Shown: in pieces, positions 33,673-51,067 of the stretch
Position numbering within the stretch: position 1 is the first letter of the stretch
How the letters are laid out: every line of letters begins with the position of its first letter
DNA from: Alistipes sp.
Lineage (GTDB): Bacteria; Bacteroidota; Bacteroidia; Bacteroidales; Rikenellaceae
Assembly: GCA_017520545.1 (NCBI GenBank)
Contig: JAFXFM010000013.1
Coordinates: forward strand, 1 to 64,000
Direction of reading: 5' to 3'
DNA length: 64,000 nucleotides
Notes under the pieces: model-generated
What the model saw: only the letters and a program-made list of their open reading frames with translations
The model's database searches: none
Told to the model about the DNA's origin: nothing
Program-made: the position numbers and the translations under genes

Positions 33673-34335
33673 GTGAATGTTCGTATAGCTGAAGATTGGA
33701 AGGAGTTGCTCCAAGAGGAGTTTGATAAACCCTATTTTGCCGAGTTGGTCGATTTTGTAAAGTCGGAGTACGCCACAACGCAGGTCTTTCCTGCGGCGCG
33801 GAATATCTTCCGGGCCTTCGATAAATGCCCACTCGAAACGCTGAAAGTGGTGATTATCGGACAAGATCCATATCACGGTGATGGTCAGGCAAATGGCTTG
33901 TGTTTTTCGGTCGATGACGGAGTCGATTTTCCGCCATCATTGCGCAATATCTTCAAGGAAGTTTCCGATGATATGGGAACCTCGATTCCGTTGAGTGGAA
34001 ATCTCGATAGGTGGGCCGAGCAGGGCGTGTTGATGTTGAATGCGGTTTTGACCGTGAGGGCCCACGAGGCAGCCTCCCACGCAGGACGAGGTTGGGAGCG
34101 ATTTACGGATGCGGTGGTGCGCCTTATTGCCGAGAGAAAAATGGGGGTGGTATATATGCTGTGGGGAAGCTATGCTCAGAAGAAGGGGGCGATAGTCGAT
34201 ACTACGCAAAATCTTGTGCTTAAAGCAGTTCACCCATCGCCACTCTCTGTATACAGAGGTTTCTTCGGTTCTCGACACTTCTCGAAGGCAAATGCCTATC
34301 TCGCAAAGCAGGGAAAGAGACCGATAGAGTGGTAA
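33673..34335 (+). CDS. ung: Uracil-DNA glycosylase
   Basis: 220 residues of family 1 UDG, removing uracil from DNA. The water-activating aspartate is in IIGQDPYHGDGQANGL, the uracil-binding region in PPSLRNIFKE, and the minor-groove loop HPSPLSVYRGFFGSRHFS is intact. Translation begins at a GTG (33673); no in-frame ATG lies close to it. Monocistronic, divergent from galM. Confidence 0.97.
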   Translation: MNVRIAEDWKELLQEEFDKPYFAELVDFVKSEYATTQVFPAARNIFRAFDKCPLETLKVVIIGQDPYHGDGQANGLCFSVDDGVDFPPSLRNIFKEVSDDMGTSIPLSGNLDRWAEQGVLMLNAVLTVRAHEAASHAGRGWERFTDAVVRLIAERKMGVVYMLWGSYAQKKGAIVDTTQNLVLKAVHPSPLSVYRGFFGSRHFSKANAYLAKQGKRPIEW

Positions 34336-34378
34336 AAATCAGATATACGATTTTTTGCAAAAAAAATGTGAAGTCTGG

Positions 34379-34408
34379 TTGTTTATATGAAAAAAATGTG
34401 TACCTTTG
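34379..34408 (+). promoter_or_regulatory. Promoter of the giant GLUG/SusCD operon
   Basis: TTG (34379-34381), 19 bases and TACCTTTG (34401-34408) form a textbook Bacteroidota promoter, 43 bases after the ung stop. Confidence 0.75.
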
Positions 34409-34711
34409 TGTCACCGAATGAAACTATAATGAGCCACGTGGAATGGACGCATTGTATGTGGTGAAACCTTAAAATAATGATTGTACGATAATTATGAGGA
34501 CTTGCAACTGTGTATAAGTCCGGTAGATGGTGAAGATTGGTCGCCTCGCTTAGTGTAGCGAAGCGAAAAATCTTTTTGTTTTTCTGCGTACGCGCGTATT
34601 GCTCGCACGTGAGGAGATTTGATGGGACGAACGACGGAAGTGAGGCGAAAACACAAACAACAAACAAAATATATCAAACAAACAATTACAAACTTTTTAA
34701 AAACTATTAGC
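34409..34711 (+). promoter_or_regulatory. Long 5' leader with hairpins before the giant gene
   Basis: About 300 untranslated bases separate promoter and GTG start. Hairpins visible are GGACTT/AAGTCC (34498-34521) and TCGCT/AGCGA (34546-34561). The second is followed by AAAAATCTTTTTG, which resembles a weak intrinsic terminator, so attenuation is possible. No known riboswitch was recognised. An in-frame ATG at 34622 could start translation earlier, but the residues it adds are charged and precede the real lipoprotein signal. Confidence 0.5.
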
Positions 34712-37700
34712 GTGAAAAATTTTACTAAACTTTTGATGTCGGTGGTTCTGCTTACGGCGGCAGCTTGTACGCAGGACTTGACAGATGACCAGGCTCCGGT
34801 TATCTCGGAGAATGGTGGTGGAAGTGGCGAAGTAAAAACGCTGCAAGTTTCGATGCCAACTTCAACACGTACGGAGTTGGGCGAAAAGGTTGATGGAAAG
34901 TATCCTGTATCGTGGTCCGAGACCGATGTTCTTGCTGTTAATGGCAAGCCGACAACCGGTATCCACATTGATGAGGCTGCTCCAAACGTTGCAGTGTTCG
35001 ACTTGCCGCAGGGAATTACGATTCCGTTCCACATTGTTTACCCTTATCAGGGTGAAAATGTAGCGGTTGAGGCTAACAGCGGAAAGTATCCGGTTGTGTT
35101 CTCTGCCGAGCAGCAGCACACCGAGGGCTCGTTTGCGCCAAACAGCGCACCGATGTATGCTTGGACAAGCGGTTTTGAGGACATCCATATGGAGCACCTC
35201 GCAACAGCTCTTCGTTTTGCAATCAAGGCGAAGGCGGGTCAGACCGTAGATTTGAAGTATATTTCGGTTTCGACCACCGATGCTGCACCAATCGCAGGTG
35301 TATTCGATGTTTACTGCACCGATAAGGACGAGGTAGCTGCAGGTACACTCGAGGCTCGTAAGAACACCTATCCAACAGTGTTCTACAACTTCGAGAATGA
35401 TAGCTATAAGCTTTCGTCCGACAAGGAGGATGTCTTCTATATCGCAGTTCCAAAGGGTGAGTACACAACTTTCGAGGTTAATTTCGTTGAACAGTCGGGT
35501 AGAGTCTATACTGAGACCTTCGACGCTTCGGGCGACAGACAGCTGCTCGGTGGTAAGGTTCGCGAGTTCCCTTCGGTTGTATTCGACCTCGATGAGTGTA
35601 GTAAGATGCTCCTCATCGGAACCGATGTTGATATGCAGACCTTGGCAAATGAGGTTAAGGCTGGCACTTTCAACGGCAAGTACGATGGTGCGCTCCTCGT
35701 TTCGGATATCGATATGACCGGTAAGGCGTGGGAGCCGCTCGATGGTTTCTCGTCATTGTTTGAGGGTCGTGGTTTCTCGATCAAGGGCTTGTCGAAACCT
35801 CTCTTTGGCGAGAACGTAGTTGGTACAATCTCGAACGTAAAGGTTGAGGGTAATATCGTAGAGGAGAAGTACGGTAGGGTTGGTCTTATCGCTCGTTCGC
35901 TTACAGTAGAGGGCGATAAGGTTGGTACAATGTTTAACTGTGCCGCAACAGGATCTATTGAGTATAAGAATACTACTCTTGCAATTACCAATGATTACAA
36001 GTTAATCAATATCGGAGGTGTTGTCGGAGGTGTTTATGGTGGTAAGGTTTCGCTTAATGAGAGTGATGTTGATGTTACCATCACTACCATCGCGGGAGCT
36101 GAGGGCAAGACCAAGGAGTTCTATTCGAGCATTGGTGGTGTCGTAGGTTATGCTTGTGCCGATGGTGATAAACTCCCTGTTGTGGTTGAGAATGTTAGCA
36201 ATGGAACAATCGTTTGGAACGACAATTCGAAGAGTGAGAAGGCTTTCCCATACATCGGAGGTGTTGCAGGTTATGTTGCTGACGGAGCTTTCGAAAGCAA
36301 TGTAAATGTAGGTGAATTGACCATTGATGAGCCTATGCTCGACCTCGATTGGGGTGGTGTTATTGGAGCATCGAATGTTTCGGTTGTAAATTGCGAGAAC
36401 AAGGGTTTGCTCGCTATTAATCACGAGTCCACTCGTTCAAACATCGGTGGCGTGGTTGGTAGATTAGAGGCCAATTCGATTGTGAATTGTGTGAATAGCG
36501 GTAAACTTATGTTCGATGAGAACTTCTTTGTTAAGGAGAAGAGTAATATCGGTGGTGTGGTTGCTTACGCTGTTAAGGGCACTAAAGAGATTAAGGAGTG
36601 TTCGAACTCAGGCTCAATTGAGTACTTGGGTTCGTGCTACTATCAGGATAGAACTACCATCAACGGTAACGCAAATATCGTAATCGGTGGTGTTATCGGT
36701 ACATCGTGGTCGGAGTTGGTTAGTGAGTGTCATAACCAGCAGTCCGCAGTGCTTCGTATCGTAGGTAAGATTGCCGGTAACGGTGATATCAAGAACAACA
36801 AGGCTACAATCGACAAGAATACCGCTATTGCGGGTGTGATTGGTGTTCGCGCCGGAAAACAGGCTACATTGGGTACTGCCGGTACGGTTAAGACTCAGAA
36901 CTGTAGCAATATGGGTAATGTAAACTTTGAGTGGCAGTACTGCGGTGCAGCATACGTGTTCAACTCGGCTTGTATTGGTATATTCGAGTCTGATTATATC
37001 TCGGATTGTAAGAATAGCGGTTCGGTAAATGTTAAGGCGAACGTTTCGACCGATACATTCAACCACCCAACAACAGGAACACTCGTTGTATTTATCTCAG
37101 GTATGTTTGGTTACATCAGCGACCACTGCGACCAGATTTACAACTGTGAGAATGCAGGCTGGGTAACCGTTTCGGGTTCGAGCAGCCGTATGATGTGGGT
37201 TTCGGGCTTGCTCGGTACTGCCGAGAGTGGTGTTAATATCAAGTTTAACAATTGCGGTAACACGGGTAATATCCTCGTAAACGACGACGTGAATGTTCGT
37301 AACGTTTATGTAGGTGGTATCTTGGCAAACACACTCGATATTAAGTTGCAGTATCCAAACTGCTACAACTCTGGTAGTGTTGAGTCGAAGGCTAACTGTA
37401 CTGCCGAGACTTATATTGGTTCGATCTTCGGCCAATCGACAGGCTCTGATACAGGTGCAGGTACCGAGGGTATCCGCAATACAGGTCGTGTAACGTTCTC
37501 AGGTTCGGCAGCTTTGGCTTACGTAGGTGGCTACTGCGGTCTTTACAAGGAGGGTAAGCACACCGTAGAGTTTGATAACGCTTCGACAGGAGTTGTTGAG
37601 TATAAGGGTAACGCATCGTTCTGCGCATTCGTAGGCGGTATCGCTGGTTTGGGTGGTTCAATTACTACCAATTCATTGACATCGTCGCAGGGTGTTGTTA

Positions 37701-40306
37701 CCGAGATTAAGTCGTTCAACGCCAACGAAGGTGGTGCGTTCGAGAAGGGTATGACCAACAACGGTAACGTAACAATCTACGGATATGCTAAGAAGGTTTA
37801 CGTTTCGGGTGGTTTTGGTTATATCACCAGCAAGAATAATGGTATTAGCGGCTTGACCAACAATGGTACTATCGAGGTACCGGATATGAGTAACGCTAAG
37901 AACCTTCCGGAGAGCATTCACATTGGTGGTGTGTTCGGATATGCTACTATGAATACGGCTTATCCTACAACTGAGGGTGCTATTACCGAGGCAAAGGCTA
38001 TCTCGGATTGCCACAATACAGGTGATATTATATATAAAGGTATGGCAACCGATGGAGCATATATCGGCGGTGTTGCCGGTTGGACTTCAAAGGCAGCTCT
38101 TTGGAACTGTACCAACAATGGTAAGATAACCTCGGCAGGTCACGCCGGAAATACTTGTCCTCGTTTCAACGAAGCAACGGAGAAAGCTACGGCTAACAAC
38201 TGGCGTAACATTATGACTCACGATATCGCAGTTGGTGGTATCGTAGGTGAGACCGATTTCGATATGGTAAATTGCGAGAACATAGGTGAGATATCTCACG
38301 AGTGTTTGCTCAACCCATTGCGTGTTGATTACCTCGGCGAACTTGCAACTTCGCGTTTCGACGTTGGTGGTATCGCAGGTCGTGTATTCACTCCACAGGA
38401 GAATACTCTTGCTTATATCTGCTCCTTTGGCGGTTTGACCAATAAGGGTAAGGTTACCATCTTGGGTACACCTGCTTCGACCAATAACTCGCCATCTGCA
38501 GATATGGGTGATGCCAATGCATACCAGTGGACTGACGTCGATGATAACGACCGTCAAAACCGTCGTTTGTTCGTACGTGTAAATGCTGCGGGTCTCTTTG
38601 GTCGTATGATGGACCTCTCGAAGATGCCGGGTACGACTATGAAGGAGACAACCTACAAGTTGTCGGGCTGTACAAACGAGGCTGCTGTATCGGTTCCTAA
38701 TGCCGGTGGTGCAAAGTGTTTGAGCCTTGCCGGTGGTATTGCCGATGTATTGGTAAGTAACTTGGAGTGTACAGCAGTGGAAAACAAGGGTAATATCTCG
38801 GTTGATGGTGCAGGTGTTGGTACTGTAATCGATGGTGCACAGATGATGCATACATTCTTTATCAATATGGGTGGTATCGTTGCTACTCACTTCGACTACC
38901 GTTTGTTCGGTAACTTGGAGGGCGACTTCTCGAAGTATAAGCACTATGCTATCTTCACTAATTGTAACAACTCGGGTAATATCCACTATGGCGAGGTTGC
39001 TGCTTCGGTATACCAGATTGCCGGTGGTATTGTAGGTCAGGCACTCCACTGTGCAGCAGACCGTTGCACAAATATCGGTTTGGAAGGCTACTCGGGTGGT
39101 AAGTGGTATAAGAGCCAGTTGCAGTTGCAATTCTACAACTGTAAGAATAGCGGTGATATCGAGTATCGTTCAACTGCTATGTCATTGACCTACAACTACA
39201 ACTATGCAGGTGGAATCCTTGGTAGTGCAAATATGGGCCACAACGGTTTTACACAGCACTATGGTAATATCAATGTGTGGGCTGAGCACTGTACAAACAC
39301 AGGTTCGATTCAGTGGGATCGTAGCAATGGTGTGGTATCATCTAACAGCGGTTATGCTAACACAGCAGTAGGTGGTATCATCGGTCAGTACACCGGAGGT
39401 ATCGGTCACTCTACAAATAGCGATACTGCAGTAGGTGGAAACCTCGGTACTCGCGAGAATGCTTGTAATGCTACAATCAAATCTTGTAAGAACTCGGGAC
39501 GTATCCACGGTTTCTCAGGTATGTTGGGCGGTATTATCGGCTGCGGTAGCTGGTATGTTAAAATTACCGGTACCGAGGATGATCCAACCATCAACACAGG
39601 TGATATCGTAGTTATGCGCGAGGGCGGTTCGGAGACTGAGAAGGGACGAGTTGTAACCAGCGGTCGTTATGGTCAGAAGTATATGTATGCGGGAGGTATC
39701 GCAGGTATCTTGCGTGAGTACACCAGCGCGGTTTATGCCGTTGGAAGTGCGAAGGCCACGGATAACAATGCATATCCAAACTATATGCCGGAGCATATGT
39801 ACTGCCGCGTTGAGTACGCTGTAAATGAGGGTGCCGTAGGTTCTACCGGTTATGCAGGTGGTATCGCAGGCTACTACTGGTCGGCAGTTGAGCCTTCGAA
39901 GCGTGATGGAGCCGAGATACAACACCGTGGTGGTATGCAGTGGTGTCGCAATACGGGTGATATTTACGCATTGGAGGGTGCAACAACCAACGTTGGTGCT
40001 ATCGTAGGTATGCCTCGTATGTTTGTCTACACATCGAACACCAACAACGATGTAGCTAAGTACTTGTCGGAGGGTATGAACACCGACAACCAGTGGCCAA
40101 TCGGTGTTAAGGATTGTTACGTTGGTGGTAGCATCTTGCGTGGAGCAGTTACTGAGTTGAAGGTTGATGCAAACAACTATCAAAATGCAATATATGGCGA
40201 GGCGTGGAATTCTGATAGCTTTGTGTCTATCTCAGACGATGGCGATTTCGATGGTTGTACACCGTATGTAGCGCCAGCTCCGGAGCAACCAACTCCAGGC
40301 CTATAA
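34712..40306 (+). CDS. Giant GLUG-repeat surface lipoprotein with fimbrillin-like N-terminus
   Basis: 1,864 residues. From the GTG at 34712 it has a lipoprotein signal (KNFTKLLMSVVLLTAAAC, lipid on the Cys before TQDL). Residues of about 30-300 resemble fimbrillin-like domains (STRTEL, then YPVSWSETDVLAVNG and an IPFHIVYPYQ segment). After a linker (SKMLLIGTDVDMQTLANEV) come more than twenty repeats with the core IGGVVGY or VGGIAG and NCxNxGxI, the GLUG-like beta-helix pattern. The C-terminal segment matches the paralogue at the left edge. It is expected to be a long surface fibre or adhesin. It heads an operon with SusC/SusD; ligand and export details are unknown. Alternative starts are 34619 (TTG) and 34622 (ATG). 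Confidence 0.88.
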   Translation: MKNFTKLLMSVVLLTAAACTQDLTDDQAPVISENGGGSGEVKTLQVSMPTSTRTELGEKVDGKYPVSWSETDVLAVNGKPTTGIHIDEAAPNVAVFDLPQGITIPFHIVYPYQGENVAVEANSGKYPVVFSAEQQHTEGSFAPNSAPMYAWTSGFEDIHMEHLATALRFAIKAKAGQTVDLKYISVSTTDAAPIAGVFDVYCTDKDEVAAGTLEARKNTYPTVFYNFENDSYKLSSDKEDVFYIAVPKGEYTTFEVNFVEQSGRVYTETFDASGDRQLLGGKVREFPSVVFDLDECSKMLLIGTDVDMQTLANEVKAGTFNGKYDGALLVSDIDMTGKAWEPLDGFSSLFEGRGFSIKGLSKPLFGENVVGTISNVKVEGNIVEEKYGRVGLIARSLTVEGDKVGTMFNCAATGSIEYKNTTLAITNDYKLINIGGVVGGVYGGKVSLNESDVDVTITTIAGAEGKTKEFYSSIGGVVGYACADGDKLPVVVENVSNGTIVWNDNSKSEKAFPYIGGVAGYVADGAFESNVNVGELTIDEPMLDLDWGGVIGASNVSVVNCENKGLLAINHESTRSNIGGVVGRLEANSIVNCVNSGKLMFDENFFVKEKSNIGGVVAYAVKGTKEIKECSNSGSIEYLGSCYYQDRTTINGNANIVIGGVIGTSWSELVSECHNQQSAVLRIVGKIAGNGDIKNNKATIDKNTAIAGVIGVRAGKQATLGTAGTVKTQNCSNMGNVNFEWQYCGAAYVFNSACIGIFESDYISDCKNSGSVNVKANVSTDTFNHPTTGTLVVFISGMFGYISDHCDQIYNCENAGWVTVSGSSSRMMWVSGLLGTAESGVNIKFNNCGNTGNILVNDDVNVRNVYVGGILANTLDIKLQYPNCYNSGSVESKANCTAETYIGSIFGQSTGSDTGAGTEGIRNTGRVTFSGSAALAYVGGYCGLYKEGKHTVEFDNASTGVVEYKGNASFCAFVGGIAGLGGSITTNSLTSSQGVVTEIKSFNANEGGAFEKGMTNNGNVTIYGYAKKVYVSGGFGYITSKNNGISGLTNNGTIEVPDMSNAKNLPESIHIGGVFGYATMNTAYPTTEGAITEAKAISDCHNTGDIIYKGMATDGAYIGGVAGWTSKAALWNCTNNGKITSAGHAGNTCPRFNEATEKATANNWRNIMTHDIAVGGIVGETDFDMVNCENIGEISHECLLNPLRVDYLGELATSRFDVGGIAGRVFTPQENTLAYICSFGGLTNKGKVTILGTPASTNNSPSADMGDANAYQWTDVDDNDRQNRRLFVRVNAAGLFGRMMDLSKMPGTTMKETTYKLSGCTNEAAVSVPNAGGAKCLSLAGGIADVLVSNLECTAVENKGNISVDGAGVGTVIDGAQMMHTFFINMGGIVATHFDYRLFGNLEGDFSKYKHYAIFTNCNNSGNIHYGEVAASVYQIAGGIVGQALHCAADRCTNIGLEGYSGGKWYKSQLQLQFYNCKNSGDIEYRSTAMSLTYNYNYAGGILGSANMGHNGFTQHYGNINVWAEHCTNTGSIQWDRSNGVVSSNSGYANTAVGGIIGQYTGGIGHSTNSDTAVGGNLGTRENACNATIKSCKNSGRIHGFSGMLGGIIGCGSWYVKITGTEDDPTINTGDIVVMREGGSETEKGRVVTSGRYGQKYMYAGGIAGILREYTSAVYAVGSAKATDNNAYPNYMPEHMYCRVEYAVNEGAVGSTGYAGGIAGYYWSAVEPSKRDGAEIQHRGGMQWCRNTGDIYALEGATTNVGAIVGMPRMFVYTSNTNNDVAKYLSEGMNTDNQWPIGVKDCYVGGSILRGAVTELKVDANNYQNAIYGEAWNSDSFVSISDDGDFDGCTPYVAPAPEQPTPGL

Positions 40307-40348
40307 CCAGCAAAACGAAAATAATTGATAAATAAAAAAATAAAACAC

Positions 40349-41254
40349 ATGTTTAAGATGAAATCATTACTTTGCATTGTGGCAATATTCTCGCTTGCGC
40401 TGGTATCGTGTACAGAGCGCATTCCCGAGAAGGATATGCCGAATGTTGATAACGGTGTCATCACTATGGTCAAGGCGACTGTGGAGCCCCTCACTTTGAA
40501 GGGCGCCACAGGAACCGGAAACTACAAGTGGAACGAGACACACTCTATCGGTATCTACGGCACAACCGAGGGTGAGAATGAGTGCTATCTCCCTGTAAAG
40601 TCAACAATCGGTGACAATGAGGCGTATTTCTTCGGAAATTCGGTGGGTGGCGATATGACCATCTATATGCCTTATGTAAGTGCGGGCAGCCCCGCTGCTC
40701 TTGATGGTCGCGTAGTCGTTCCGGCACAGCAGAAATACTATGCCGATGCATTCGACCATTTGATGTACAACTCGACATTCCTTGCCAATGTGGATTCGGA
40801 GAATGTAACATTCGACTACCACACGGGTCTTTTGAAGGTTGAGTTGAAGTACGACATTACAAACATTACCCGAGTATCGGTTTTGGTTGGTAATGTTACT
40901 GCTGATGGTGGTTACACCGACAATTGTGTTGGTGATCTTGCTGTCGAAGCTGATGTTGAAGAGTATCTCGTAAATGGTGGCAGTCAGGCAACCGTAACAG
41001 GTTTCCCAGAGGGCTTTAGCACCACCAAAGAAGAGCCGCAGATCGTATGGTTTGCACTTGCTCCGGGAATTTACGAGAACTTTGTCGTAGAGATTCAGAG
41101 TGCCGATATGACTATCTCGACCCCGGTAAGAGGTCCATTCGCAATTGAGAAGTGCGCTATCGCGGAGAAGTCTTGTGTGGCAGAGGAGCAGAAGTACGAC
41201 AACGGCATCGACGACTTCTGGGGTGAGAATGGTCAATTCAACCCCAAGAATTAA
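40349..41254 (+). CDS. Fimbrillin-like lipoprotein
   Basis: 301 residues with a lipoprotein signal (MKSLLCIVAIFSLALVSC). The body shows fimbrillin/Mfa-like character: YKWNETHSIGIYGTTEGE, a MTIYMPYVSAG segment, then DYHTGLLKVELKYD. It resembles the N-terminal part of the giant protein before it. It may be a pilus-like subunit or a surface accessory. The start at 40349 (MFKMKSLL) or 40358 (MKSLL) is equally plausible. The gap to the previous gene is 42 bases. Confidence 0.78.
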   Translation: MFKMKSLLCIVAIFSLALVSCTERIPEKDMPNVDNGVITMVKATVEPLTLKGATGTGNYKWNETHSIGIYGTTEGENECYLPVKSTIGDNEAYFFGNSVGGDMTIYMPYVSAGSPAALDGRVVVPAQQKYYADAFDHLMYNSTFLANVDSENVTFDYHTGLLKVELKYDITNITRVSVLVGNVTADGGYTDNCVGDLAVEADVEEYLVNGGSQATVTGFPEGFSTTKEEPQIVWFALAPGIYENFVVEIQSADMTISTPVRGPFAIEKCAIAEKSCVAEEQKYDNGIDDFWGENGQFNPKN

Positions 41255-41293
41255 GAGTAAATGAAGTGTTTGATTGTTAAAAGAAAGAGAGAT

Positions 41294-41950
41294 ATGAAAA
41301 AGACTTATTTACTCGTTATAATGGCTGCCGTATTTGCTATTTGCAGCTGTACAAAAGTGGAGTATATTGAGGTTACAGGCCAAGTACTTGCTGTGAAGGA
41401 GGTACCCGTGGCTGCTGGTTCGTTCCAGTTGCCAATTACTGTGGAGAACACCAATAGACTCGTGTGGAAGGTGCGCCCAATACATAGTTGGTTGCACGTT
41501 GATGATTCTGATTGGAAGCAGAATGCTTACAATGTAACTGTTCGCTACGATTCGAATGAGTCGTCGATGAATAGTCGTAACTTTGCTCGTGTAGGACATC
41601 TCGTAATCGAGACCTACGACGGCTTCGTGGCTGATACTGTTGTTGTTAAGCAGCGTGGTATCACTCCATCGATGAAGTTGGAGAATGTTACGGTCGAGGC
41701 TTTGGAGACCAAATGCTTGATTCCATTCAACACCAACCTTACCGACGCTTGTCGTCCGGGTATTACCTTCTCGGCCGATGCGGATTGGGTTAGCGGTATT
41801 GAGTATCTCGGCAATGGTAAGGAGTTGGAGGTCGGCTTCACTGCAAACGATGGCATTAAGCGTACAGCAAATGTTACTGTATTGTTCGTAGATGCTTGGG
41901 GCGATGAGTATAAAGCAGAATGTGTACTAACTCAAAAAGGACTTGAATAA
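41294..41950 (+). CDS. BACON-domain lipoprotein
   Basis: 218 residues, lipoprotein signal (YLLVIMAAVFAICSC). Two Ig-like modules with BACON features follow: LVWKVRPIHSWLHVDD and the C-terminal DWVSGIEYLGNGKELEVGF with TVLFVDAWGDEYKAECVLTQ, each ending in a beta strand. BACON domains usually support binding of carbohydrate or mucin at the cell surface. The stop overlaps the next start (TAATG), so translation is coupled. Start chosen at 41294; an in-frame ATG at 41261 lacks a signal sequence. Confidence 0.8.
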   Translation: MKKTYLLVIMAAVFAICSCTKVEYIEVTGQVLAVKEVPVAAGSFQLPITVENTNRLVWKVRPIHSWLHVDDSDWKQNAYNVTVRYDSNESSMNSRNFARVGHLVIETYDGFVADTVVVKQRGITPSMKLENVTVEALETKCLIPFNTNLTDACRPGITFSADADWVSGIEYLGNGKELEVGFTANDGIKRTANVTVLFVDAWGDEYKAECVLTQKGLE

Positions 41951-43005
41951 TGAAAAAGATACTTTACACACTATTTGCAGTGTCGCTCCTCGCAGTGGGT
42001 TGTACCAAGGAGGTAGGTGTATCGCGTGATCACGATATCAATGCGGAGGTTACCGATATGCAGACCAAGATGGAACTTGCGACACTCTATTTAAATCTCA
42101 CCGAGGCGGGAGATGTAAACTTGGATAAGTTGGCACTCTACCTCACCGAGAAAGCCGCAGATATTGCTATGTTTGTTGCGCCAAAGACTGTTGGTACAAC
42201 ATCGCAGCGCGACTTTATGGATTGGTTCAATAGGTATGCTAATGAGAACAATTTGGAATCGTTGGTAGCAATCAACGATGACAATCGTTTGGTTATGGCT
42301 GCACTCGTAAAGGAGGGCGTAAATATCGAAGATGTTTATACCGTTCAGCAGGGTGTGAGCCTTAACAACGCAGTTCTCCACTTCAAGGCTAACGGCATTC
42401 ACTTCGTAGTTACAGAGTTGTTGCCAGCCAAGAATGCTATTCCGGAGGATTGGTCTGCACAGATTGATGCAATGCTTACAAACAAGAAGCAGGTGCCTTT
42501 TGTTTACGAGCCTGATAACCTCGCTGCGCGTAAGACAGAGCTTAGTTATATCATTAAGCAGACTGTTGATAACAAGGCGTATTTGAAGGACGCTAATTGG
42601 TATTTCGCTATCAATACGAATGCCGAGTCGCACCTCGATATGGTGAAGTATGAGAGGGATTTCTATCGTCAGGATTGCTACGAAGCACCTGCCGACCCCG
42701 AGTTCTATTGGGAGGACTTCCTCGCAACCGAGCATAAGTACTTCTCAATTGAGGAGTTGATTTCGGCAGACGATATCTACTTCAACGTAAGCAATTTGTT
42801 GATGTACTACAACTTGGTTGATGGCAACTCGGTACATCACTCGGTTTACACACCATCGAGCACAGATGGATCGCGTGCTAACAATGTCTTTGCAACAGAC
42901 GAGTGCTGGAATATGTTCCAAACATTCGACTTCGATGCATCGATAATCGCAGATACGGGTTTGGCGCACTATCCAATTATTGTTACACTTAAAAGTGAGG
43001 AATAG
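41950..43005 (+). CDS. Lipoprotein of unknown function, degenerate EEP-like
   Basis: 351 residues, lipoprotein signal (MKKILYTLFAVSLLAVGC). No domain is certain. The layout resembles the endonuclease/exonuclease/phosphatase fold: DIAMFVAPKTVG, a strand LHFKANGIHFVVTELLPAK where that fold has its HL motif, a mid segment WYFAINTNAESHLDM and a C-terminal LAHYPIIVTLK like the final SDHYPV motif. The catalytic acidic residue of that motif is replaced by Ala, so if the match is real the protein is probably a binding protein, not an enzyme. It lies directly before susC, so a surface-complex role is inferred. Confidence 0.6.
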   Translation: MKKILYTLFAVSLLAVGCTKEVGVSRDHDINAEVTDMQTKMELATLYLNLTEAGDVNLDKLALYLTEKAADIAMFVAPKTVGTTSQRDFMDWFNRYANENNLESLVAINDDNRLVMAALVKEGVNIEDVYTVQQGVSLNNAVLHFKANGIHFVVTELLPAKNAIPEDWSAQIDAMLTNKKQVPFVYEPDNLAARKTELSYIIKQTVDNKAYLKDANWYFAINTNAESHLDMVKYERDFYRQDCYEAPADPEFYWEDFLATEHKYFSIEELISADDIYFNVSNLLMYYNLVDGNSVHHSVYTPSSTDGSRANNVFATDECWNMFQTFDFDASIIADTGLAHYPIIVTLKSEE

Positions 43006-43008
43006 CAG

Positions 43009-46000
43009 ATGAAACGCATAATTAACAGTGTGATTTACGCATCGTTCTGCATCGTGGCCCTGCTGTTCGCCCAGACAGCAATGGCGCAGAAGGCGCGTAC
43101 GATATCGGGACAGGTATTTGATAGTACCGGTCAGCCAATGATTGGCGCAACCGTTGTCGTAGTAGGAAATGCAGGTGTCGGTACAACAACCGATATGCAG
43201 GGTAAATATAAAATTAAGGCTACACCGGATGATCAGCTTTCGTTCTCGTTCCTCGGTTATGTCGAGGTTACCGAGCGCGTGGGTACCCGTACCTCGATCA
43301 ACATCGTGTTGCAGCAGGAGAATGTGAACATTAACGAGGTCGTGGTCATTGGTTATGGTACTCAGCAGAAGAGCGACTTGACCGGTGCCGTTACATCGGT
43401 GAATATGGAGGACTTGGCAAATACTGCCGTAGCATCGGTTGATGAGGCGTTGCAGGGTCGTTTGGCCGGTGTCGAGATTATGACAACCGATGGTGAGCCG
43501 GGTTCGGCTGCTTCGATTCGAGTTCGTGGTTCGCGTTCTATCGCAGCATCGAATGAGCCACTTATCGTGGTTGATGGTGTTATGGACGCGGTATCGAGCT
43601 TTGCCGATATCGATCCGGCTGAAATTAAGAATGTAACAGTGTTGAAGGATGCATCGTCTACGGCTATCTACGGTTCGCGTGGAGCCAATGGTGTAATCCT
43701 CGTAACTACCCACGAGGCTAAGGCCAATAAGCTCAATGTAACCTTCAAGGCTACATTCCAGCTTTCGGAGTTGCCACGCGAGTTGGATATGATGAATGCT
43801 GCAGAGTTTGCACAGTATCGTAACGACTACTTCGTCAATAGTAGTGGTACTTATCGTTTGCAGGCGCGTTCGTCGGACTACAACAAGTATCAGAACCCTG
43901 CAATCTATGGTGAGGGTACCGATTGGCTTGGTGTAATGACACGTAAGGCATTCTCGCACAACTACTTTCTTTCGTTGGCAGGTGGTAGCAAGAGCACCAA
44001 GGTTTACTTCTCGTTGGGTTACAACGACCGTCAGGGTATTGTAATCAATTCGGGTCAGACCCAGTTGAGCACTCGTTTGAAGCTCGACCACACAGCGTTT
44101 AAGTGGTTGAAACTCGGTGTTAATGCGACCTATTCGATACGTGAGCAGGATAAGGCGAACAACAACATCTCGGGTACAGGTGCAACAGCGGTAACCAACC
44201 TCAACCCAATGCAGGATCCAACTTCGATTTGGAACATCTTGGGTGATAATGGTACCAATGGTGGTTCGATCTACGACTCTCCATATTTGAAGGCGTTGAA
44301 CCTCACCAACATCTATGACCGTGCAATTTTGACACTCACTCCGTATGTCGAATTGACTTTGGCAAAGGGTTTGAAGTTGAAGTCGCAGTTCTCTTACACA
44401 TTGACACAGACTCACAACTTTACCTATTCGCCATCGACAATGCCAGTGGCAGAGCGTTACCGTTATGGAGGTTCTGCAACCCGTACCGATAGTGAGACTT
44501 TCAACTTGTTGAGCGAGACTACCTTGTCGTACAAGAAGACCATTAAGAAGAAGCATAAGATTGACGTAGTGGGTGCTTTCACTGCACAGAACACTCGCAA
44601 CAACTACCTCAACATCAATGGTCGTGGTTACCTTGACGATAATGTAACATACTACAATATGGACGCTATCGTGGATAAGCGATGCCTCAATTCGAGCTCT
44701 TCTTCGTGGATGTTGCAGCGTTATTCGGTATTGGCTCGTGCCAACTATTCGTATGGCGGTCGCTACCACTTCACTTTGACAGCTCGTGGCGATGCTGCGT
44801 CGAACTTTGCACGTGGACACCAGTGGGCATTCTTCCCAGCAGGTGCGTTCAAGTGGACTATCAGCAACGAGAAGTTTATGAAGGGTGCGAAGTCGTGGTT
44901 GTCTGACCTCTCGATCCGACTCAGTGGTGGTCGTTCGGGTAACGACTCGGTAGGACGTTATGTTTCGCAGATGTTGCTCTCGACAAACCAGAGCGGTTGG
45001 TTGTTTGGCGACTCTTACGAGGCTGCGTTCTATCCAAACCGTATCAACAACCCTGATTTGACTTGGGAGAAGACCGATTCGTTCAACCTCGGTATCGACT
45101 TCTCGATTTTGAAGGATCGAATCACAATGTCGTTGGAGGGTTATATGGCCTATACTAAGGCCCTCCTCTACAATATGCAGAATGCAACTGTAACAGGTTT
45201 CGGTACGCGTATTGCCAACATTGGTAGCACCGAGAATAAGGGTGTTGAGTTCTCGTTCACATCGCGTAACATTTCGCGTCGTAACTTCCAGTGGACTACA
45301 AACTTGACCGTAGCACACAACTCGTCGAAAGTTACCGATATCGCAACTGCATACGGATACGTTTCGACATATAGTGCCGGCGGTTATATGATTTACGGTT
45401 ATGCCGAGGGCTATCCTGCAAACTCGTTGTGGGGCTTCCAGTATGAGGGTGTATGGCACACACAGGACGAGCTCGATCAGAATAAGCAGACCAAGACATA
45501 TGTTAGCTCGGTTCGTAGCCGCGGTTATGCACGTTACGCCGACATCAACCACGATGGCGTGTTGAATGACAAGGACCGTATCTACCTCGGTTCGGCAGAC
45601 CCTATCGTATATGGAGGTTTCAACAACACCTTCAAGATTATAAAGAACTTGTCGTTGGGTGTTTACTTCACATATAGCATCGGAGGTCGTATGTACAACG
45701 TAATGGAGTTCACTACAATGCGTGGTAATGCAACTTCGAACAAGGATCGTCGTATGTTGGGAGCTTGGCACGCAAGTCGTAACCCATTCTCGAACATTCC
45801 GGGTGCGTATATGACAGATAGCTATGGTAGCGATTTGTTCATCTACGATGCTTCGTACTTGCGTTTGCAGAACGTAAACTTGAGCTATCGTTTCGACTTG
45901 CGAAAGAAGACTCGTTACTTGCGTGACATCTCTTTGACTGCGTCGGTTAATAACGTAGCACTCCTTACAAAGTTCCCTGGATATGACCCAGATGCAGTAA

Positions 46001-46077
46001 GCGGTGGTCGTCGTATCGATACAGGTCGTTATCCAAAGAACCGTAACTATTCACTTGCAATTCAAATTCGCTACTAA
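43009..46077 (+). CDS. susC: SusC/RagA family TonB-dependent outer membrane transporter
   Basis: 1,022 residues. A signal peptide (ending TAMAQ) precedes the carboxypeptidase-D regulatory-like domain (ISGQVFDSTGQPMIGATVVV), the TonB-box region (INEVVVIGYGTQQKSDLTGAV), the plug (GSRSIAASNEPLIVVDGV, then LKDASSTAIYGSRGANGVI) and the 22-strand barrel ending in YSLAIQIRY. It forms the energised importer that SusD lids. The imported ligand is unknown, as no enzyme in the operon hints at a glycan. The gap to susD is two bases. Confidence 0.96.
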   Translation: MKRIINSVIYASFCIVALLFAQTAMAQKARTISGQVFDSTGQPMIGATVVVVGNAGVGTTTDMQGKYKIKATPDDQLSFSFLGYVEVTERVGTRTSINIVLQQENVNINEVVVIGYGTQQKSDLTGAVTSVNMEDLANTAVASVDEALQGRLAGVEIMTTDGEPGSAASIRVRGSRSIAASNEPLIVVDGVMDAVSSFADIDPAEIKNVTVLKDASSTAIYGSRGANGVILVTTHEAKANKLNVTFKATFQLSELPRELDMMNAAEFAQYRNDYFVNSSGTYRLQARSSDYNKYQNPAIYGEGTDWLGVMTRKAFSHNYFLSLAGGSKSTKVYFSLGYNDRQGIVINSGQTQLSTRLKLDHTAFKWLKLGVNATYSIREQDKANNNISGTGATAVTNLNPMQDPTSIWNILGDNGTNGGSIYDSPYLKALNLTNIYDRAILTLTPYVELTLAKGLKLKSQFSYTLTQTHNFTYSPSTMPVAERYRYGGSATRTDSETFNLLSETTLSYKKTIKKKHKIDVVGAFTAQNTRNNYLNINGRGYLDDNVTYYNMDAIVDKRCLNSSSSSWMLQRYSVLARANYSYGGRYHFTLTARGDAASNFARGHQWAFFPAGAFKWTISNEKFMKGAKSWLSDLSIRLSGGRSGNDSVGRYVSQMLLSTNQSGWLFGDSYEAAFYPNRINNPDLTWEKTDSFNLGIDFSILKDRITMSLEGYMAYTKALLYNMQNATVTGFGTRIANIGSTENKGVEFSFTSRNISRRNFQWTTNLTVAHNSSKVTDIATAYGYVSTYSAGGYMIYGYAEGYPANSLWGFQYEGVWHTQDELDQNKQTKTYVSSVRSRGYARYADINHDGVLNDKDRIYLGSADPIVYGGFNNTFKIIKNLSLGVYFTYSIGGRMYNVMEFTTMRGNATSNKDRRMLGAWHASRNPFSNIPGAYMTDSYGSDLFIYDASYLRLQNVNLSYRFDLRKKTRYLRDISLTASVNNVALLTKFPGYDPDAVSGGRRIDTGRYPKNRNYSLAIQIRY

Positions 46078-46079
46078 TT

Positions 46080-47807
46080 ATGAAGAAGACAATTTTAATA
46101 ATACTTGCTGCTATTGCGTTAGTAGGTTGTACTCTTGAGGAGCAGTTGTACGATTCTGCACCGGAGACCTACTATCAGACAGTGCCACAGTGTCAGACGG
46201 GTCTTAATGGTTGCTATCTTCCATTGAAGAGCCTCTACGCTAACGGCGACTATTTTGAGGTGTGTGAGGTAGCAGCCGATTTGATCTATCACAATTCGGA
46301 CTCATACTATGATGGTATGTGCCACTACACACAGTCTATTCCTCGCTTTGGTGCCAACATCTGGAATCAGGGATATTCAGGTGTTATGCGCTGTAACGCT
46401 ATGTATGCAGCAATTGAGCGCTCTCCACTTACTGATGAGGAGAAGGCTCCGTTGTTGGCAGAGTGCGTTATTTTGCGTGCTTTCTACTACTACATCTTGA
46501 CTATTAACTTCGGAGACGTGCCTTACTATTTCGAGGAGGTTACCGATGCTAATAACGAGAGAATTTCGCAGATGCCACGTAAGCCGGCGAAGGAGCTTCG
46601 TAACGAGCTTATGGACCAGTTGGATTATTGGTTGCTCAAAAAGCAGGCGTTGCCAATGATTAAGACTTACGATCCGGCAAACCACTATCGTATTGGCGCA
46701 ATGGTAGGTCTTACCATCGCCGGTAAGTTGGCTATGTGGAACAAGCGTTTCGACAAGGCAATTGAGTTCTATAAGCCTATTGAGTTGGTTTATGGTAGCG
46801 TGGATGCCGAAGGCGTATATCGTGAGCGTGATGCCTTGATGGGCTACGATTTGAAGGATGTTCAGTTCCGCAATCGTTATACTCCGGAGTCGATTTTGGA
46901 GTTGCCTGGATATGCAAAGGATTATGGTTTGCGTGTTACTCAGCAGTTGGCATCGCGTTGTACTCCAATGCGTAGTTCATCACTCCAAGAGGGTGCTGTT
47001 GATGAGGCCGGTGATGAGTCGGTAGAGGAGGAGGGTATGGACTTCTCGCAGAAGGATGATATTTACGATGGTGTTCGTATTCCGGAGTTGGGAGTGAATG
47101 CCCGTACAACATCTCCTTATCGTCCAACCAACTATCTCTACAAGACTTTGTTGCCATACAATGCGCCAGATAAGCGTCGTGCTGTGTACGACCCTGCAAA
47201 ATGTTCTCCAACCGAGGTTGTAGAGATCGAAGGTGGAGCCGGCTGGTTGGCTTGGTGCTATAGGGGCTGGAAGGATGCAAAGATTGATATTGACGACCCT
47301 GCAAACCCTCCGGGAGGACACTTCTTCAACAATACAAAGACCTATGCAGGTCGTCCATATCTTGGTGATAAGTTCTGGTGTCCGGGTATGATTTACAACC
47401 AGGATGCGAACAACTTGAAGATTTTCCGCTTTGCCCACATCATTTTCGACTTGGCAGAGGCAAATATGCGCTGCGGTAATTGGGAGAAGGCATTCGACTA
47501 TCTCAATGCATCGAAGCAGCGTGCCGGCCGTCCTGATTTGAGTGGTGGTCATACTGACGAGGTGATGTTTATGAAAGAGTTGGAGGAGGAGTCTGGTCGT
47601 GAGTTGTTGGGTGAGTTTACTCGTCGTCACAACCTTGTTCGTTGGGGAATTTGGTACGACCGCGTTATAGAGGGCTCGGCAGGTAATGATATTGTAAGTT
47701 ACGTTAAGGAGGGTCCTTGCCGTGAGTACTATCCAATTCCAGACCAGCAGATTGTGCTCTCTAACTACAATTTGTCTAACCCTGAATATGATAAATACGG
47801 ATTATAA
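46080..47807 (+). CDS. susD: SusD/RagB family surface lipoprotein
   Basis: 575 residues, lipoprotein signal (MKKTILIILAAIALVGC). SusD traits are the N-terminal TGLNGCYLPLKSL, the TPR helices with CVILRAFYYYILTINFGDVPYYFEE, and the C-terminal ESGRELLGEFTRRHNLVRWG and REYYPIPDQQIVLS. It binds the substrate and delivers it to SusC at the surface. A stretch at about residues 300-330 (LQEGAVDEAGDESVEEEG) is an acidic insertion not typical of the family. The stop overlaps the next start (TAATG). Confidence 0.95.
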   Translation: MKKTILIILAAIALVGCTLEEQLYDSAPETYYQTVPQCQTGLNGCYLPLKSLYANGDYFEVCEVAADLIYHNSDSYYDGMCHYTQSIPRFGANIWNQGYSGVMRCNAMYAAIERSPLTDEEKAPLLAECVILRAFYYYILTINFGDVPYYFEEVTDANNERISQMPRKPAKELRNELMDQLDYWLLKKQALPMIKTYDPANHYRIGAMVGLTIAGKLAMWNKRFDKAIEFYKPIELVYGSVDAEGVYRERDALMGYDLKDVQFRNRYTPESILELPGYAKDYGLRVTQQLASRCTPMRSSSLQEGAVDEAGDESVEEEGMDFSQKDDIYDGVRIPELGVNARTTSPYRPTNYLYKTLLPYNAPDKRRAVYDPAKCSPTEVVEIEGGAGWLAWCYRGWKDAKIDIDDPANPPGGHFFNNTKTYAGRPYLGDKFWCPGMIYNQDANNLKIFRFAHIIFDLAEANMRCGNWEKAFDYLNASKQRAGRPDLSGGHTDEVMFMKELEEESGRELLGEFTRRHNLVRWGIWYDRVIEGSAGNDIVSYVKEGPCREYYPIPDQQIVLSNYNLSNPEYDKYGL

Positions 47808-48325
47808 TGAAAAAGATATTAGCAATACTTACGGTGCTGTTTGCTACAAGTGTAGCGACGTCGTGTGTTAAGCCGTACCAGTACACCGAGGAGTTGACAA
47901 TCGACAACTACGATTTGACTCTTAATAAGACTGCATCGAAAAAGGACGTAGATTTGTATAACGTCCACTATTTCCAGATTATTGCAACTGGTCCGTGGGA
48001 GGCAACTCTTACACAGAAGAATGAGGGTACTGTTTGGTGTTATTTGAACGAGTTCCATCGCGTAAAGAAGAAGGACGAAAAAGGCGAATACATCAAGGAC
48101 GAATATGGCCGCTACGAGTTCGATAAGGTGAATGTCGTTGAGGGCATAGAGGCTTTCCCGGGCGAGGGCGACAGATTTAAGGTCGTTAGAGGTAAGGCAG
48201 GTGTAACTTACTTACCAATGGAGTATGTTGATAACCAGGATAATGCTGCGCGTTATGCTATACTTCACGTACGCCGTTTGGATGTCGATTGCGAGAAATG
48301 GGTAAACATCACTCAAAATAAATAA
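47807..48325 (+). CDS. Small surface lipoprotein of the SusCD operon
   Basis: 172 residues, lipoprotein signal (ILTVLFATSVATSC). The rest is beta-rich (IIATGPWEATLTQKNEGTVWCYLNE, then ARYAILHVRRLDVDCEKWVNITQ) and looks like a single BACON-like module with an inserted charged loop (VKKKDEKGEYIKDEYG). It probably binds a ligand beside SusD. Function not established. Confidence 0.7.
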   Translation: MKKILAILTVLFATSVATSCVKPYQYTEELTIDNYDLTLNKTASKKDVDLYNVHYFQIIATGPWEATLTQKNEGTVWCYLNEFHRVKKKDEKGEYIKDEYGRYEFDKVNVVEGIEAFPGEGDRFKVVRGKAGVTYLPMEYVDNQDNAARYAILHVRRLDVDCEKWVNITQNK

Positions 48326-48334
48326 TTGGTGACT

Positions 48335-49036
48335 ATGAAGAAGATATTTGTAATGATATTGGCAGTTTCGGCATATTTGGCGTCGTGTACGTCGCCATAC
48401 TATCCGGAGTATCACCCAATTATTGCTTTGGGTGCAGAGACCAGCAATGTGGTTCTTGAGAGTGACGAGAATTTCTGCAAGTTGGCTATTATCTCGAACG
48501 TTGAGTACGATGCAACTATCATCTCGGGTTCGGAGTGGCTTTCGTTTGCCGATACCGAGGGCACAGTGCGTGTAGGTAGCGGTAACGAGCACGTAGAGTT
48601 CAAGCACTTGCAGAATAACAACAACAAGCGTGTAGCACGTTTGGTGCTTTCGGCAGGTGCTCGTCGCGACACTATTAATTTTAAGCAGAAGGGACGTTTC
48701 GAGGATTACCTCGCAATTCACGATGATGACAAGGTGCTCTTCTCTATGGAGAATGGCACTCGTATGCCAGTCTCTTGGGAGGGTGGTGAGATCTCGTTCC
48801 GCTTGCGCACAAGCTGTATGGACCACGAGTTGTCGGCTTGGACTTCGGACAAGACCGTTGTTAATGGTTTCAAGTTTGAGAATGGCGTATGTACATTCAA
48901 TGTTGCGGTTAATGACGAGTTGCAGCCTCGTATCATACCATTCCGCATCTTGTATGTAGATGGTTGGGGTGATACTCGAACTTTGGAGTTGTCTATCCGT
49001 CAGGAGTATAACCCTGATTTGGCAGATATTGAGTAA
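48335..49036 (+). CDS. BACON-domain lipoprotein, last gene of the SusCD operon
   Basis: 233 residues, lipoprotein signal (IFVMILAVSAYLASC). Two beta-sandwich modules: a first (YDATIISGSEWLSFADTEG, the BACON W-L pattern, then RVARLVLSAGARRDTINFKQ) and a second (MPVSWEGGEISFRLRTS, then RILYVDGWGDTRTLELSIRQ) resembling the end of the BACON protein at 41294-41950. It is probably a surface-glycan-binding partner. The start at 48335 is chosen over the TTG at 48326 by the signal sequence. Confidence 0.78.
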   Translation: MKKIFVMILAVSAYLASCTSPYYPEYHPIIALGAETSNVVLESDENFCKLAIISNVEYDATIISGSEWLSFADTEGTVRVGSGNEHVEFKHLQNNNNKRVARLVLSAGARRDTINFKQKGRFEDYLAIHDDDKVLFSMENGTRMPVSWEGGEISFRLRTSCMDHELSAWTSDKTVVNGFKFENGVCTFNVAVNDELQPRIIPFRILYVDGWGDTRTLELSIRQEYNPDLADIE

Positions 49037-49052: not shown

Positions 49053-49091
49053 AAGGAGGTGTCGGAGCGATGTTCTGACACCTCCTTTTTT
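49053..49091 (+). terminator. Terminator of the SusCD operon
   Basis: AAGGAGGTGTC pairs with GACACCTCCTT around a 13-base loop and is followed by Ts, 17 bases after the last gene. Confidence 0.9.
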
Positions 49092-49213
49092 GTTATTTTT
49101 TGAGGGGGGGGGAGTGGTTTTTAGAGGCGTTATAGAAGTAATAGGTGTTAAGGTCGTTAGAGGATTGCCGGGGTTCAGCTCTCTGTACTCTGTACTCTGT
49201 TTTTGTTGCCAAA

Positions 49214-49245
49214 TTTGGGATTCTCGAAAGTTTTTATTACCTTTG
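49214..49245 (+). promoter_or_regulatory. Promoter of the LuxE-LicD-GT2 operon
   Basis: TTTG (49214-49217), 20 bases, TACCTTTG (49238-49245), then the GTG start four bases later; leaderless transcript likely. The region before it (49092-49213) carries a tract of nine Gs at 49104-49112 and a short direct repeat (CTCTGTACTCTGTACTCTGT). Confidence 0.78.
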
Positions 49246-49249
49246 TTAT

Positions 49250-50215
49250 GTGGGAGAGTGTGAATATATATTCTCGATAGCCTCGGAAGAGGAGTTTGCG
49301 CGCGAGGCTTTGCGGTTGTTTCGCTATCAGGCAGAGCGTTGCGAGCCGTATGCGGAGTATGTGCGATTGATAGGAGTTGAACCATCGCAAGTACAACGCG
49401 TAGAGGATATTCCGATGTTGCCAATCGGGATTTTTAAGTCGCACAAGGTCTATTGTGGCGAGTGTGAGCCGCAACAGATTTTTACATCGAGTGCTACGAC
49501 AGGTATGGTGCAGTCGCGACACTATGTGGCGGATATAGCGCTCTACGAAAAGGCGTTTACGGAGGCGTTTCGACACTTCTACGGCAATGAGAGCGAGTGC
49601 AGTATCTATGCGTTGTTGCCGTCGTATCTCGAACGCGAGGGGTCGTCGTTGGTCTATATGGCAGAGCGACTGATTGCGGCGAGTGGTGGAGGTGGCTTCT
49701 ACCTGAATGACTACGAGAAGTTGTTGGACGATATGTCGCGCGACCCGAATCCGAAGATTCTGCTCGGTGTAACCTACGCCTTGCTCGATTTGGCAGAGAA
49801 CTTTGCTCCGCATCTCGAAAATACGGTCGTAATGGAGACGGGCGGTATGAAGGGACGACGCAAGGAGCTGCCGAAGGCGGAGCTGCACAAGATGCTCTGC
49901 TCGGCGTTCGGAGTGGAGCGCATACATTCGGAGTATGGTATGGCAGAGTTGTTGTCGCAGGCATACTCCTTTGGCGAGGGCTTGTTCCGTACACCACGCT
50001 GGATGAGGGTGCTGGTGCGCGATGTGAACAATCCGTTTGCACGCCTTGCCTCGGGACGTCGAGGCGGTTTGGATATTATAGATTTGGCAAATCAATTCTC
50101 GTGTGCATTTATCGCCACCGAGGATATGGGAATACGCTACGACGACGGTTCGTTCCGCATCGAAGGACGTATTTCGCAAAGCGATATTAGAGGCTGCAAT
50201 TTGTTGGTGCAGTAG
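49250..50215 (+). CDS. LuxE-like acyl-protein synthetase/acyltransferase
   Basis: 321 residues. Matches the LuxE acyl-protein synthetase pattern: DIPMLPIGIFKSHKVY near residue 60, then TSSATTGMVQSRHYV (the nucleotide-binding loop), METGGMKGRRKELPKAEL and HSEYGMAELLSQAYSF. Such enzymes activate a carboxylic acid as an acyl-adenylate. In surface-polysaccharide loci they may add acyl or amino-acyl groups. The GTG at 49250 is chosen because the promoter ends just before it; upstream in-frame codons (from 49145) lie across that promoter. It is followed by LicD and GT2 genes as one operon. Confidence 0.85.
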   Translation: MGECEYIFSIASEEEFAREALRLFRYQAERCEPYAEYVRLIGVEPSQVQRVEDIPMLPIGIFKSHKVYCGECEPQQIFTSSATTGMVQSRHYVADIALYEKAFTEAFRHFYGNESECSIYALLPSYLEREGSSLVYMAERLIAASGGGGFYLNDYEKLLDDMSRDPNPKILLGVTYALLDLAENFAPHLENTVVMETGGMKGRRKELPKAELHKMLCSAFGVERIHSEYGMAELLSQAYSFGEGLFRTPRWMRVLVRDVNNPFARLASGRRGGLDIIDLANQFSCAFIATEDMGIRYDDGSFRIEGRISQSDIRGCNLLVQ

Positions 50216-50221
50216 GGTAGT

Positions 50222-51067
50222 ATGAAGTACGCAAAAGAGGATTTACAAAGGCTCCACGAGGAGTTGTATCGTACGCTGGCAGAGGTTATTCGTGTCTGCG
50301 AAGTGTGCGACATACCCTATTTCATCCAAGGAGGCTCGGCAATAGGCGCTTTGTATAACAAGGGCATAGTACCCTGGGACGACGATATTGATGTGGGTAT
50401 GACGCGCGAAAATTATGAGCGATTTCTGCGTGAAGCCCCTGCGCATCTCTCACCCGACTACTTCTTGGAGTGGTTTGGCACCGAGCCGAACACACCGTTC
50501 TACTTTGCAAAGGTTAAGCGTAATAATACCCTCTTTGTGGAGGAGATTTGGCGTAATATGGAGATTCATCACGGCATATTTGTCGATATCTTCCCATACG
50601 ACCGTATTCCGGATAACGGCTTATTGGAGCGTATGCATCGCTTTTGGGCTAAGTTCTGGATAAACTGCTTTATGGGCAAGGCGATATGGTTGTGGCGTTA
50701 CTGCGGACGATGCGAGATTGATGCTCCGTTGCCAAAGTCGTGGTTGAGCTGCTTGGCTATCCGTGTGGTGGTGTCGGTGATGTCGCGCGAGGCGATATAT
50801 CGCAAGATGAATCGTGTACTTGGGCGCTACAATCGTTGCAACACGAAGTATGTAAATATCGTGCGTATGCCGAAGGATCAGATTGCGCGTGCCGATATCG
50901 AGAATACCGTGAATATGGAGTTTGGAGGAATGATGGTGAAGGCTCCGCGAAATATCGAGGTCTATTTGCGCCACCACTATCCAAATCTTCGTCCCGTATT
51001 GCCCGAAGAAGAACAGATAAATCATACACCTTATAAGTTGTCATTTAATACTAAAAACGAGCTATGA
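50222..51067 (+). CDS. LicD family transferase
   Basis: 281 residues. Signature of LicD/fukutin-type nucleotidyltransferase-fold proteins: YFIQGGSAIGALYNKGIVPWDDDIDVGMTRENYERFL, with the catalytic aspartates in DDDID. Members transfer phosphocholine or sugar-phosphate groups to cell-surface glycans. The gap to the previous gene is six bases, and the 3' end overlaps the GT2 gene by four bases (ATGA). The acceptor is unknown. Confidence 0.9.
   Translation: MKYAKEDLQRLHEELYRTLAEVIRVCEVCDIPYFIQGGSAIGALYNKGIVPWDDDIDVGMTRENYERFLREAPAHLSPDYFLEWFGTEPNTPFYFAKVKRNNTLFVEEIWRNMEIHHGIFVDIFPYDRIPDNGLLERMHRFWAKFWINCFMGKAIWLWRYCGRCEIDAPLPKSWLSCLAIRVVVSVMSREAIYRKMNRVLGRYNRCNTKYVNIVRMPKDQIARADIENTVNMEFGGMMVKAPRNIEVYLRHHYPNLRPVLPEEEQINHTPYKLSFNTKNEL

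Follow-up and report, generated by a model that had tools for sequence, protein, structure and literature searches.

The stretch of DNA analysed here, called the window in the following, comprises 64,000 nucleotides from Alistipes sp. (assembly GCA_017520545.1, contig JAFXFM010000013.1, positions 1 to 64,000). According to its open reading frame listing, eight co-directional genes follow each other on the forward strand from position 34712 to 49036 with gaps of −1 to about 42 bases, at the very place where the original prediction had put them. They encode a SusC/SusD pair and six further lipoproteins, here referred to as A, B, C, D, G and H, and are preceded by a structured leader and a small cluster on the opposite strand (Table 1).

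Table 1. Features of the SusC/SusD operon and its surroundings (positions in the window)
Feature	Position	Strand	Basis or remark
S1/P1 nucleases	30109-30906, 30918-31697	-	
Nucleoside phosphorylase	31710-32420	-	
Aldose epimerase lipoprotein	32434-33552	-	
Promoter -7 box TACCTTTG, Bacteroidota type	34401..34408	+	pattern scan; TAnnTTTG here in 11/11 leaders
Structured leader RNA	34409..34619 (model region 34427-34581)	+	fold and covariation, no Rfam match
Leader helix P1	34433-34462	+	
Possible 4-codon upstream ORF	34477..34491	+	speculative
Leader helix P2	34498-34521	+	
Leader helix P3, terminator-like	34532-34575	+	followed by U-run
Gene A, 1,864-residue lipoprotein	34712..40306	+	GLUG repeats, weakly fimbrillin-like head
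Gene B, lipoprotein related to A head	40358..41254	+	start could be 40349
Gene C, BACON-like lipoprotein	41261..41950	+	start could be 41294
Gene D, EEP-related lipoprotein	41950..43005	+	without catalytic residues
SusC, TonB-dependent transporter	43009..46077	+	
SusD lipoprotein	46080..47807	+	
Gene G, small BACON-like lipoprotein	47807..48325	+	
Gene H, BACON lipoprotein	48335..49036	+	N-terminal part of BACON-DUF5689 proteins of homologous loci
Intrinsic terminator, strong	49053..49087	+	hairpin at same place in 9/9 other loci examined

The bounds of the operon recur in related loci. The TAnnTTTG box is retained in all leaders, and 3' of H a hairpin is accompanied by a T-rich stretch in the window as well as in all nine other loci examined, a count made without shuffle control. 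A scan for sigma-70 promoters found 23 sites as compared to 25.5 in shuffled sequences, and this promoter type was dropped, as its sites were not above the shuffles. Of the good promoter and terminator that had been proposed, the terminator and the TAnnTTTG box thus stood, and the sigma-70 scan did not add to them. The gene 3' of the operon has its own box at 49238. These conserved bounds would fit a single transcript of the eight genes, beside which internal promoters may exist. Further downstream, the window holds LuxE-like, LicD-like and glycosyltransferase genes (49145-52134) and a cobalamin riboswitch (RF00174, 52243-52450, 73 bits) upstream of a gene run with a TonB-dependent receptor (54459-56474).

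The assignment of the central pair had been made correctly. SusC matched TIGR04056 with 802 bits and the plug domain PF07715 with an E-value of 3e-19, and SusD matched PF07980 (E 8e-15), with both PF07980 and PF14322 above their cut-offs. The operon thus encodes a SusC/RagA-family barrel with plug and an adjacent SusD-family lipoprotein, which together make up a predicted SusC/SusD importer, and SusD is the gene next to SusC in all ten related loci. In this family, SusD passes the ligand to SusC, and import is energised by TonB. A PDB search identified chain 8aa4 as the best solved relative of SusC (E 2e-141), which belongs to the dextran utilisome according to PMC7618045. The operon shares the SusC barrel, the SusD lid and surface lipoproteins with the levan and dextran utilisomes of Bacteroides thetaiotaomicron, but differs from them by its six extra lipoproteins, including the giant GLUG protein, and by the lack of a hydrolase in the operon. 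A match to RagA of Porphyromonas gingivalis was also obtained (E 2e-88). RagAB is a SusCD-type peptide importer that is not tied to a glycoside hydrolase; in contrast to it, no protease family was matched by the eight genes of the window in Pfam or NCBIfam. Association with the BAM complex was rejected, as only low-scoring BamK and BamP matches far below the cut-off were found.

Lipoboxes were seen in most of A, B, C, D, G, H and SusD, among them A and SusD, and all seven proteins are predicted to lie at the cell surface. Protein A was described in the original prediction as a GLUG lipoprotein of 1,864 residues; its size and lipobox were confirmed, whereas GLUG was found in the genome search (one 23-residue match, 22.7 bits, over the cut-off) but not in the hmmscan of the whole protein against Pfam at E≤1. 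Another GLUG protein of 920 residues (25.6 bits) is encoded at 170-2932 of the window. Of the fimbrillin-like character claimed for the A head and for B, only weak traces were recovered: the A head matched Mfa_like_1 in six of 11 orthologues (best E 0.0013), reaching 17.7 bits in the window with a cut-off of 27, and B did so in one of 12 (E 0.16). Profile comparison showed B and the A head to be alike over 228 columns (probability 95), and a PDB search with the B profile gave nothing usable. All three BACON-like lipoproteins could be recovered, C and H by Pfam just under the cut-off (E 9e-5 and 7e-4) and G by profile comparison (probability 96.8, 105 columns including the signal peptide). A combined profile of H and C hit residues 34-92 of a GH5 chain in the PDB (E 0.2), presumably its BACON domain.

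With a giant GLUG protein and a head that is weakly similar to fimbrillins, A might be a surface fibre of an adhesion organelle, and SusC/SusD would then serve for signalling or anchoring. The genome of the window contains 18 matches to the A head, A included, and such heads are thus used widely. However, the window protein A has no fimbrillin domain above the family cut-off by which a Type V (FimA/Mfa1) fimbria would be recognised, and no pilus-assembly protein was matched among the eight genes in Pfam or NCBIfam. A carries a lipobox, its order with SusC/SusD is conserved, and the homologous loci carry enzymes. An adhesion organelle is therefore regarded as highly improbable. The capture-and-uptake complex that had been suggested beside it is favoured by the evidence, which speaks for the organelle only faintly.

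The absence of a degrading enzyme, as claimed before, holds true for the operon itself; two S1/P1 nucleases lie upstream on the other strand. No glycoside hydrolase or lyase was matched by the eight genes in Pfam or NCBIfam, and the locus thus lacks the enzymes by which a polysaccharide utilization locus is defined. That normal Sus loci carry such enzymes proved a poor yardstick in this genome of 1.93 Mb, which has four PF07980 matches. A scan of ten of the proteins encoded around the other three SusD genes found two of the subtilase family (one cut by the end of the stretch) and one GDPD protein, but no glycoside hydrolase.

Gene D had been called a degenerate EEP-like lipoprotein, and this was borne out. 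D has no Pfam match at E≤1, and the comparison with EEP by hhalign gave a probability of 97.8 (E 1e-12, 270 columns); in the control comparison against B only the 25-residue signal peptide aligned (probability 85). Four residues, namely the Glu, the motif His, the GDxN Asp and the SDH Asp, are catalytic in EEP enzymes. In a count over all 11 orthologues with corrected coordinates, no D has the Glu, the motif His or the SDH Asp, and the GDxN Asp is missing from seven, among them that of the window, and present in L014, L015, L017 and L018. The active site of an EEP enzyme thus seems to be lost in D. The first Asn is kept in all 11 orthologues and the SDH His in ten, and together with the GDxN Asp in four of 11 this leaves room for D to retain some activity, which may be the case judging from these residues. 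Searches of the PDB with the D profile gave nothing usable, and one EEP of a homologous locus had no match there at E≤0.01. In the three of ten loci for which selection was computed, dN/dS of D ranged from 0.14 to 0.18, and genes B to H had values of 0.08 to 0.29 with dS up to 1.7. D thus looks like a former enzyme under purifying selection. A literature search found no paper that combines exonuclease phosphatase, SusD, polysaccharide utilization loci and BACON.

The operon is not restricted to a single strain. A SusD search of a genome contig collection identified ten loci (51-86% identical), all from metagenome-assembled genomes of Alistipes sp. or Rikenellaceae. Sheep, yak, water deer or water buffalo are named as host for six of them and none is named for four. 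C, D, SusC and SusD were matched in all ten, A, B and H in nine and G in eight, in the same order as far as the contigs reach. G had no match in L016, and the contig of L017 is cut at both sides. An order unique to this strain, which would have spoken against the proposed arrangement, is thus not what was found, as the order recurs in ten loci, with L016 lacking G. D was detected at E≤1e-10 in ten of 180 genomes of the genus, with one copy each; the D of L016 is 30% identical and not among these matches. L016 is the deepest orthologue, and its leader stretch (L107) has no leader match. The neighbourhood is partly shared, with UDG 5' of the operon in nine of ten leader stretches (none was seen in L105), LuxE 3' of it in L010, L013 and L014, and a further GLUG gene 3' of H in L009 and L018.

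More distant relatives carry enzymes. Eight loci with a related SusC were found, six of them in a single genome of the same genus (G002) and one each in G031 and G055. Counted on the operon strand with antisense ORFs set aside, DUF5689 proteins are encoded in all eight, an EEP protein in six and a metallophosphatase in three; the stretches examined of L077 and L078 showed no EEP. The EEP motifs are kept in four loci, L072, L073 (with two EEPs), L075 and L076, and the EEPs of L070 and L071 lack them, apart from the Glu in L070. In the tables of EEP motifs and charges, the D rows of L010 and L011 are missing, and C stands for H in L009. Pfam further matched GH3 (other strand), GH5, GH20, SASA and BNR-like genes as well as PHP, beta-lactamase-fold and DUF5107 genes. 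SusC of the window is about 45-49% identical to those of the seven homologous loci measured, with L070 compared over the C-terminal half only. L070 and L071 also resemble the window in their order of GLUG, GLUG, B, C, EEP-like, SusC, SusD, a small lipoprotein and a BACON protein. What distinguishes these EEP/DUF5689/BACON Sus loci (L070-L073, L075-L078) from the operon is that DUF5689 is kept, that EEP motifs are kept in four, that extra enzymes are present and that the leader was not found in them.

In a SusC tree, for which two long rows of the window's genome are the only root, the 11 window-type sequences form one clade (100/100) with L070 and L071 as sister (100/100), followed by L072 (95/89). 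H has 233 residues and aligns with the N-terminal part of the BACON-DUF5689 homologues, in which DUF5689 starts at residues 221-249. As H ends about where DUF5689 begins in the homologues, the operon looks like a stripped form, and on these alignments it is probably a derivative of the EEP/DUF5689 Sus loci. Loss of the EEP residues would have been under way by the time of the ancestor shared with L070 and L071, or would have happened separately, and DUF5689 would have been lost from H in the window clade.

The cluster upstream of the operon offers a lead to a possible ligand. The S1/P1 nucleases, which are presumably secreted, are found on the upstream side of the promoter at a distance of about 2.7 to 4.3 kb, next to a nucleoside phosphorylase and an aldose epimerase. 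It could be imagined that these nucleases cut DNA or RNA outside the cell, that D binds it, that SusC/SusD imports the oligonucleotides and that the sugars enter metabolism by way of the phosphorylase and the epimerase. Such scavenging would be in line with the 11 S1/P1 matches and the ten EEP matches over the cut-off plus one weak in the 1.9 Mb genome, with a SusC net charge of +15 to +22 in ten of 11 orthologues (+4 in L016), and with the phosphoesterases and DUF5689 proteins of the homologous loci. In Riemerella, natural transformation depends on a DUF5689 protein, for which DNA binding was only proposed (PMC8459023). However, in those homologous loci the net charge of SusC varies from +1 to +19, GH3, GH5, GH20, SASA and BNR-like genes occur as well, and DUF5689 and the EEP residues are the very parts that were lost from the operon. 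SusD is acidic, with net charges of −17 to −27 among the orthologues, which says little because two other SusD proteins of the genome that were checked are acidic, too.

The linkage of the cluster itself is loose. A nuclease-like ORF adjoins the phosphorylase in L099, L101, L102, L103, L104 and L107, as judged from the start of the protein and, for the contigs of L101 and L103, also shown by a search, but none was seen near it in L105, L106 and L108. A phosphorylase with paired nucleases is present in L125-L128, from genomes without D and the operon. Because of these, operon and cluster are not regarded as linked; the cluster was rejected as proof of the ligand and downgraded to a lead. Taken together, nucleic-acid scavenging by these components appears unlikely. 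Across the genus, 11 of 61 genomes have 8-15 S1/P1 nuclease matches and 15 of 61 have none. In the window's genome, an A-like head and an EEP domain are also combined in a single lipoprotein-like ORF of 555 residues (L141:3999-5663, G000:C3).

A more serious alternative, which is nevertheless held with less than even confidence, is that of a glycan Sus locus with hydrolases encoded elsewhere, in which D would bind glycan by means of the old enzyme fold. BACON and SusCD are common in glycan loci, the nearest solved SusC is a dextran transporter, and glycoside hydrolase and SASA genes lie near the homologous loci. On the other hand, nearness in SusC sequence does not tell the ligand, and the ten proteins beside the other SusD genes of the genome again yielded no glycoside hydrolase.

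Between the promoter box and gene A, a gap of about 300 bases is found, of which the first ~170 fold into three helices. Neither this leader nor the nuclease cluster or the enzyme-bearing homologous loci had been part of the original prediction. For B. thetaiotaomicron, long 5' untranslated regions that contain short ORFs have been described, as have small RNAs that target susC messages (PMC7366714 and PMC11697453). The fold of 34409-34590 was better than all 200 shuffles (z −2.99). Ten leaders were aligned, that of the window and nine others, and L107 was left out because it does not align; searched separately with the leader model, it gave no match either. In this alignment, 87.6% of the cells were paired versus 41-53% in slid controls, and 15 of 34 pairs had two-sided changes, a number reached by two of 500 shuffles (mean 9.6), although the slid control at −2 came near with 13 such pairs. 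The covariation score was reached by none of 500 shuffles, a test that kinship can inflate. Within a conserved stretch, all ten leaders have an ATG with an in-frame stop after three to four codons.

The leader model recovers its own ten leaders, as expected. Among 61 genomes of the genus it was clear in five, the same five that carry D, and in a sample of 295 genomes of the order, own genome included, only the own match was clear, with strict filters that may miss weak ones. The stretches examined from the homologous loci gave no match, some of them ending before the region 5' of the first gene is reached, and the whole genomes G002 and G031 gave none either. Some other hits are probably due to chance, namely a second one in the window's genome (G000:C3:146719-146824, 30.1 bits), one in G267 from another family (31.7 bits) and nine weak ones among 39 loci (E 0.0015-0.85). 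Rfam gave no match at E≤1 for 34300-34800, which sets the leader apart from the known cis-regulatory RNAs of that collection. It was found clearly only upstream of the operon and is new with respect to Rfam. With its terminator-like P3, the leader likely sets expression after initiation by attenuation. A far-reaching combination of all these elements, in which a nucleic-acid SusCD importer with an EEP nuclease turned binder is governed by a new attenuator RNA exclusive to the operon, perhaps with a 4-codon leader ORF, is considered quite unlikely.

Overall, the operon looks like an unusual variant of the known SusCD feeding system. From the comparison of genes and loci, it would best be explained as an enzyme-free SusC/SusD complex for capture and import from which the cutting step has been lost, and a probability of about 0.6 is given to this explanation. 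In such a complex, the GLUG fibre A, the EEP-derived D and the BACON proteins would catch a polymer or its fragments at the surface, SusD would hand the ligand to SusC for import with TonB energy, and cutting would be done by enzymes encoded elsewhere, one of which may still work together with the complex. As for the ligand, a (phospho)glycan is the leading candidate and still a tentative one, nucleic acid or another phosphodiester polymer is rather doubtful, a ligand of some other kind is less probable than that, and a peptide is the least expected.

The operon thus appears to be a Sus locus that was stripped of cutting and retained capture and import, together with a former enzyme under purifying selection. 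If it works by attenuation, the leader RNA would add a new element to the regulation of a Sus operon, its newness resting on the Rfam search. For the biology of these bacteria, the operon offers an example, open to experiment, of how a surface enzyme may have become a binder and how a consumer may feed on fragments that other proteins or other cells have cut.
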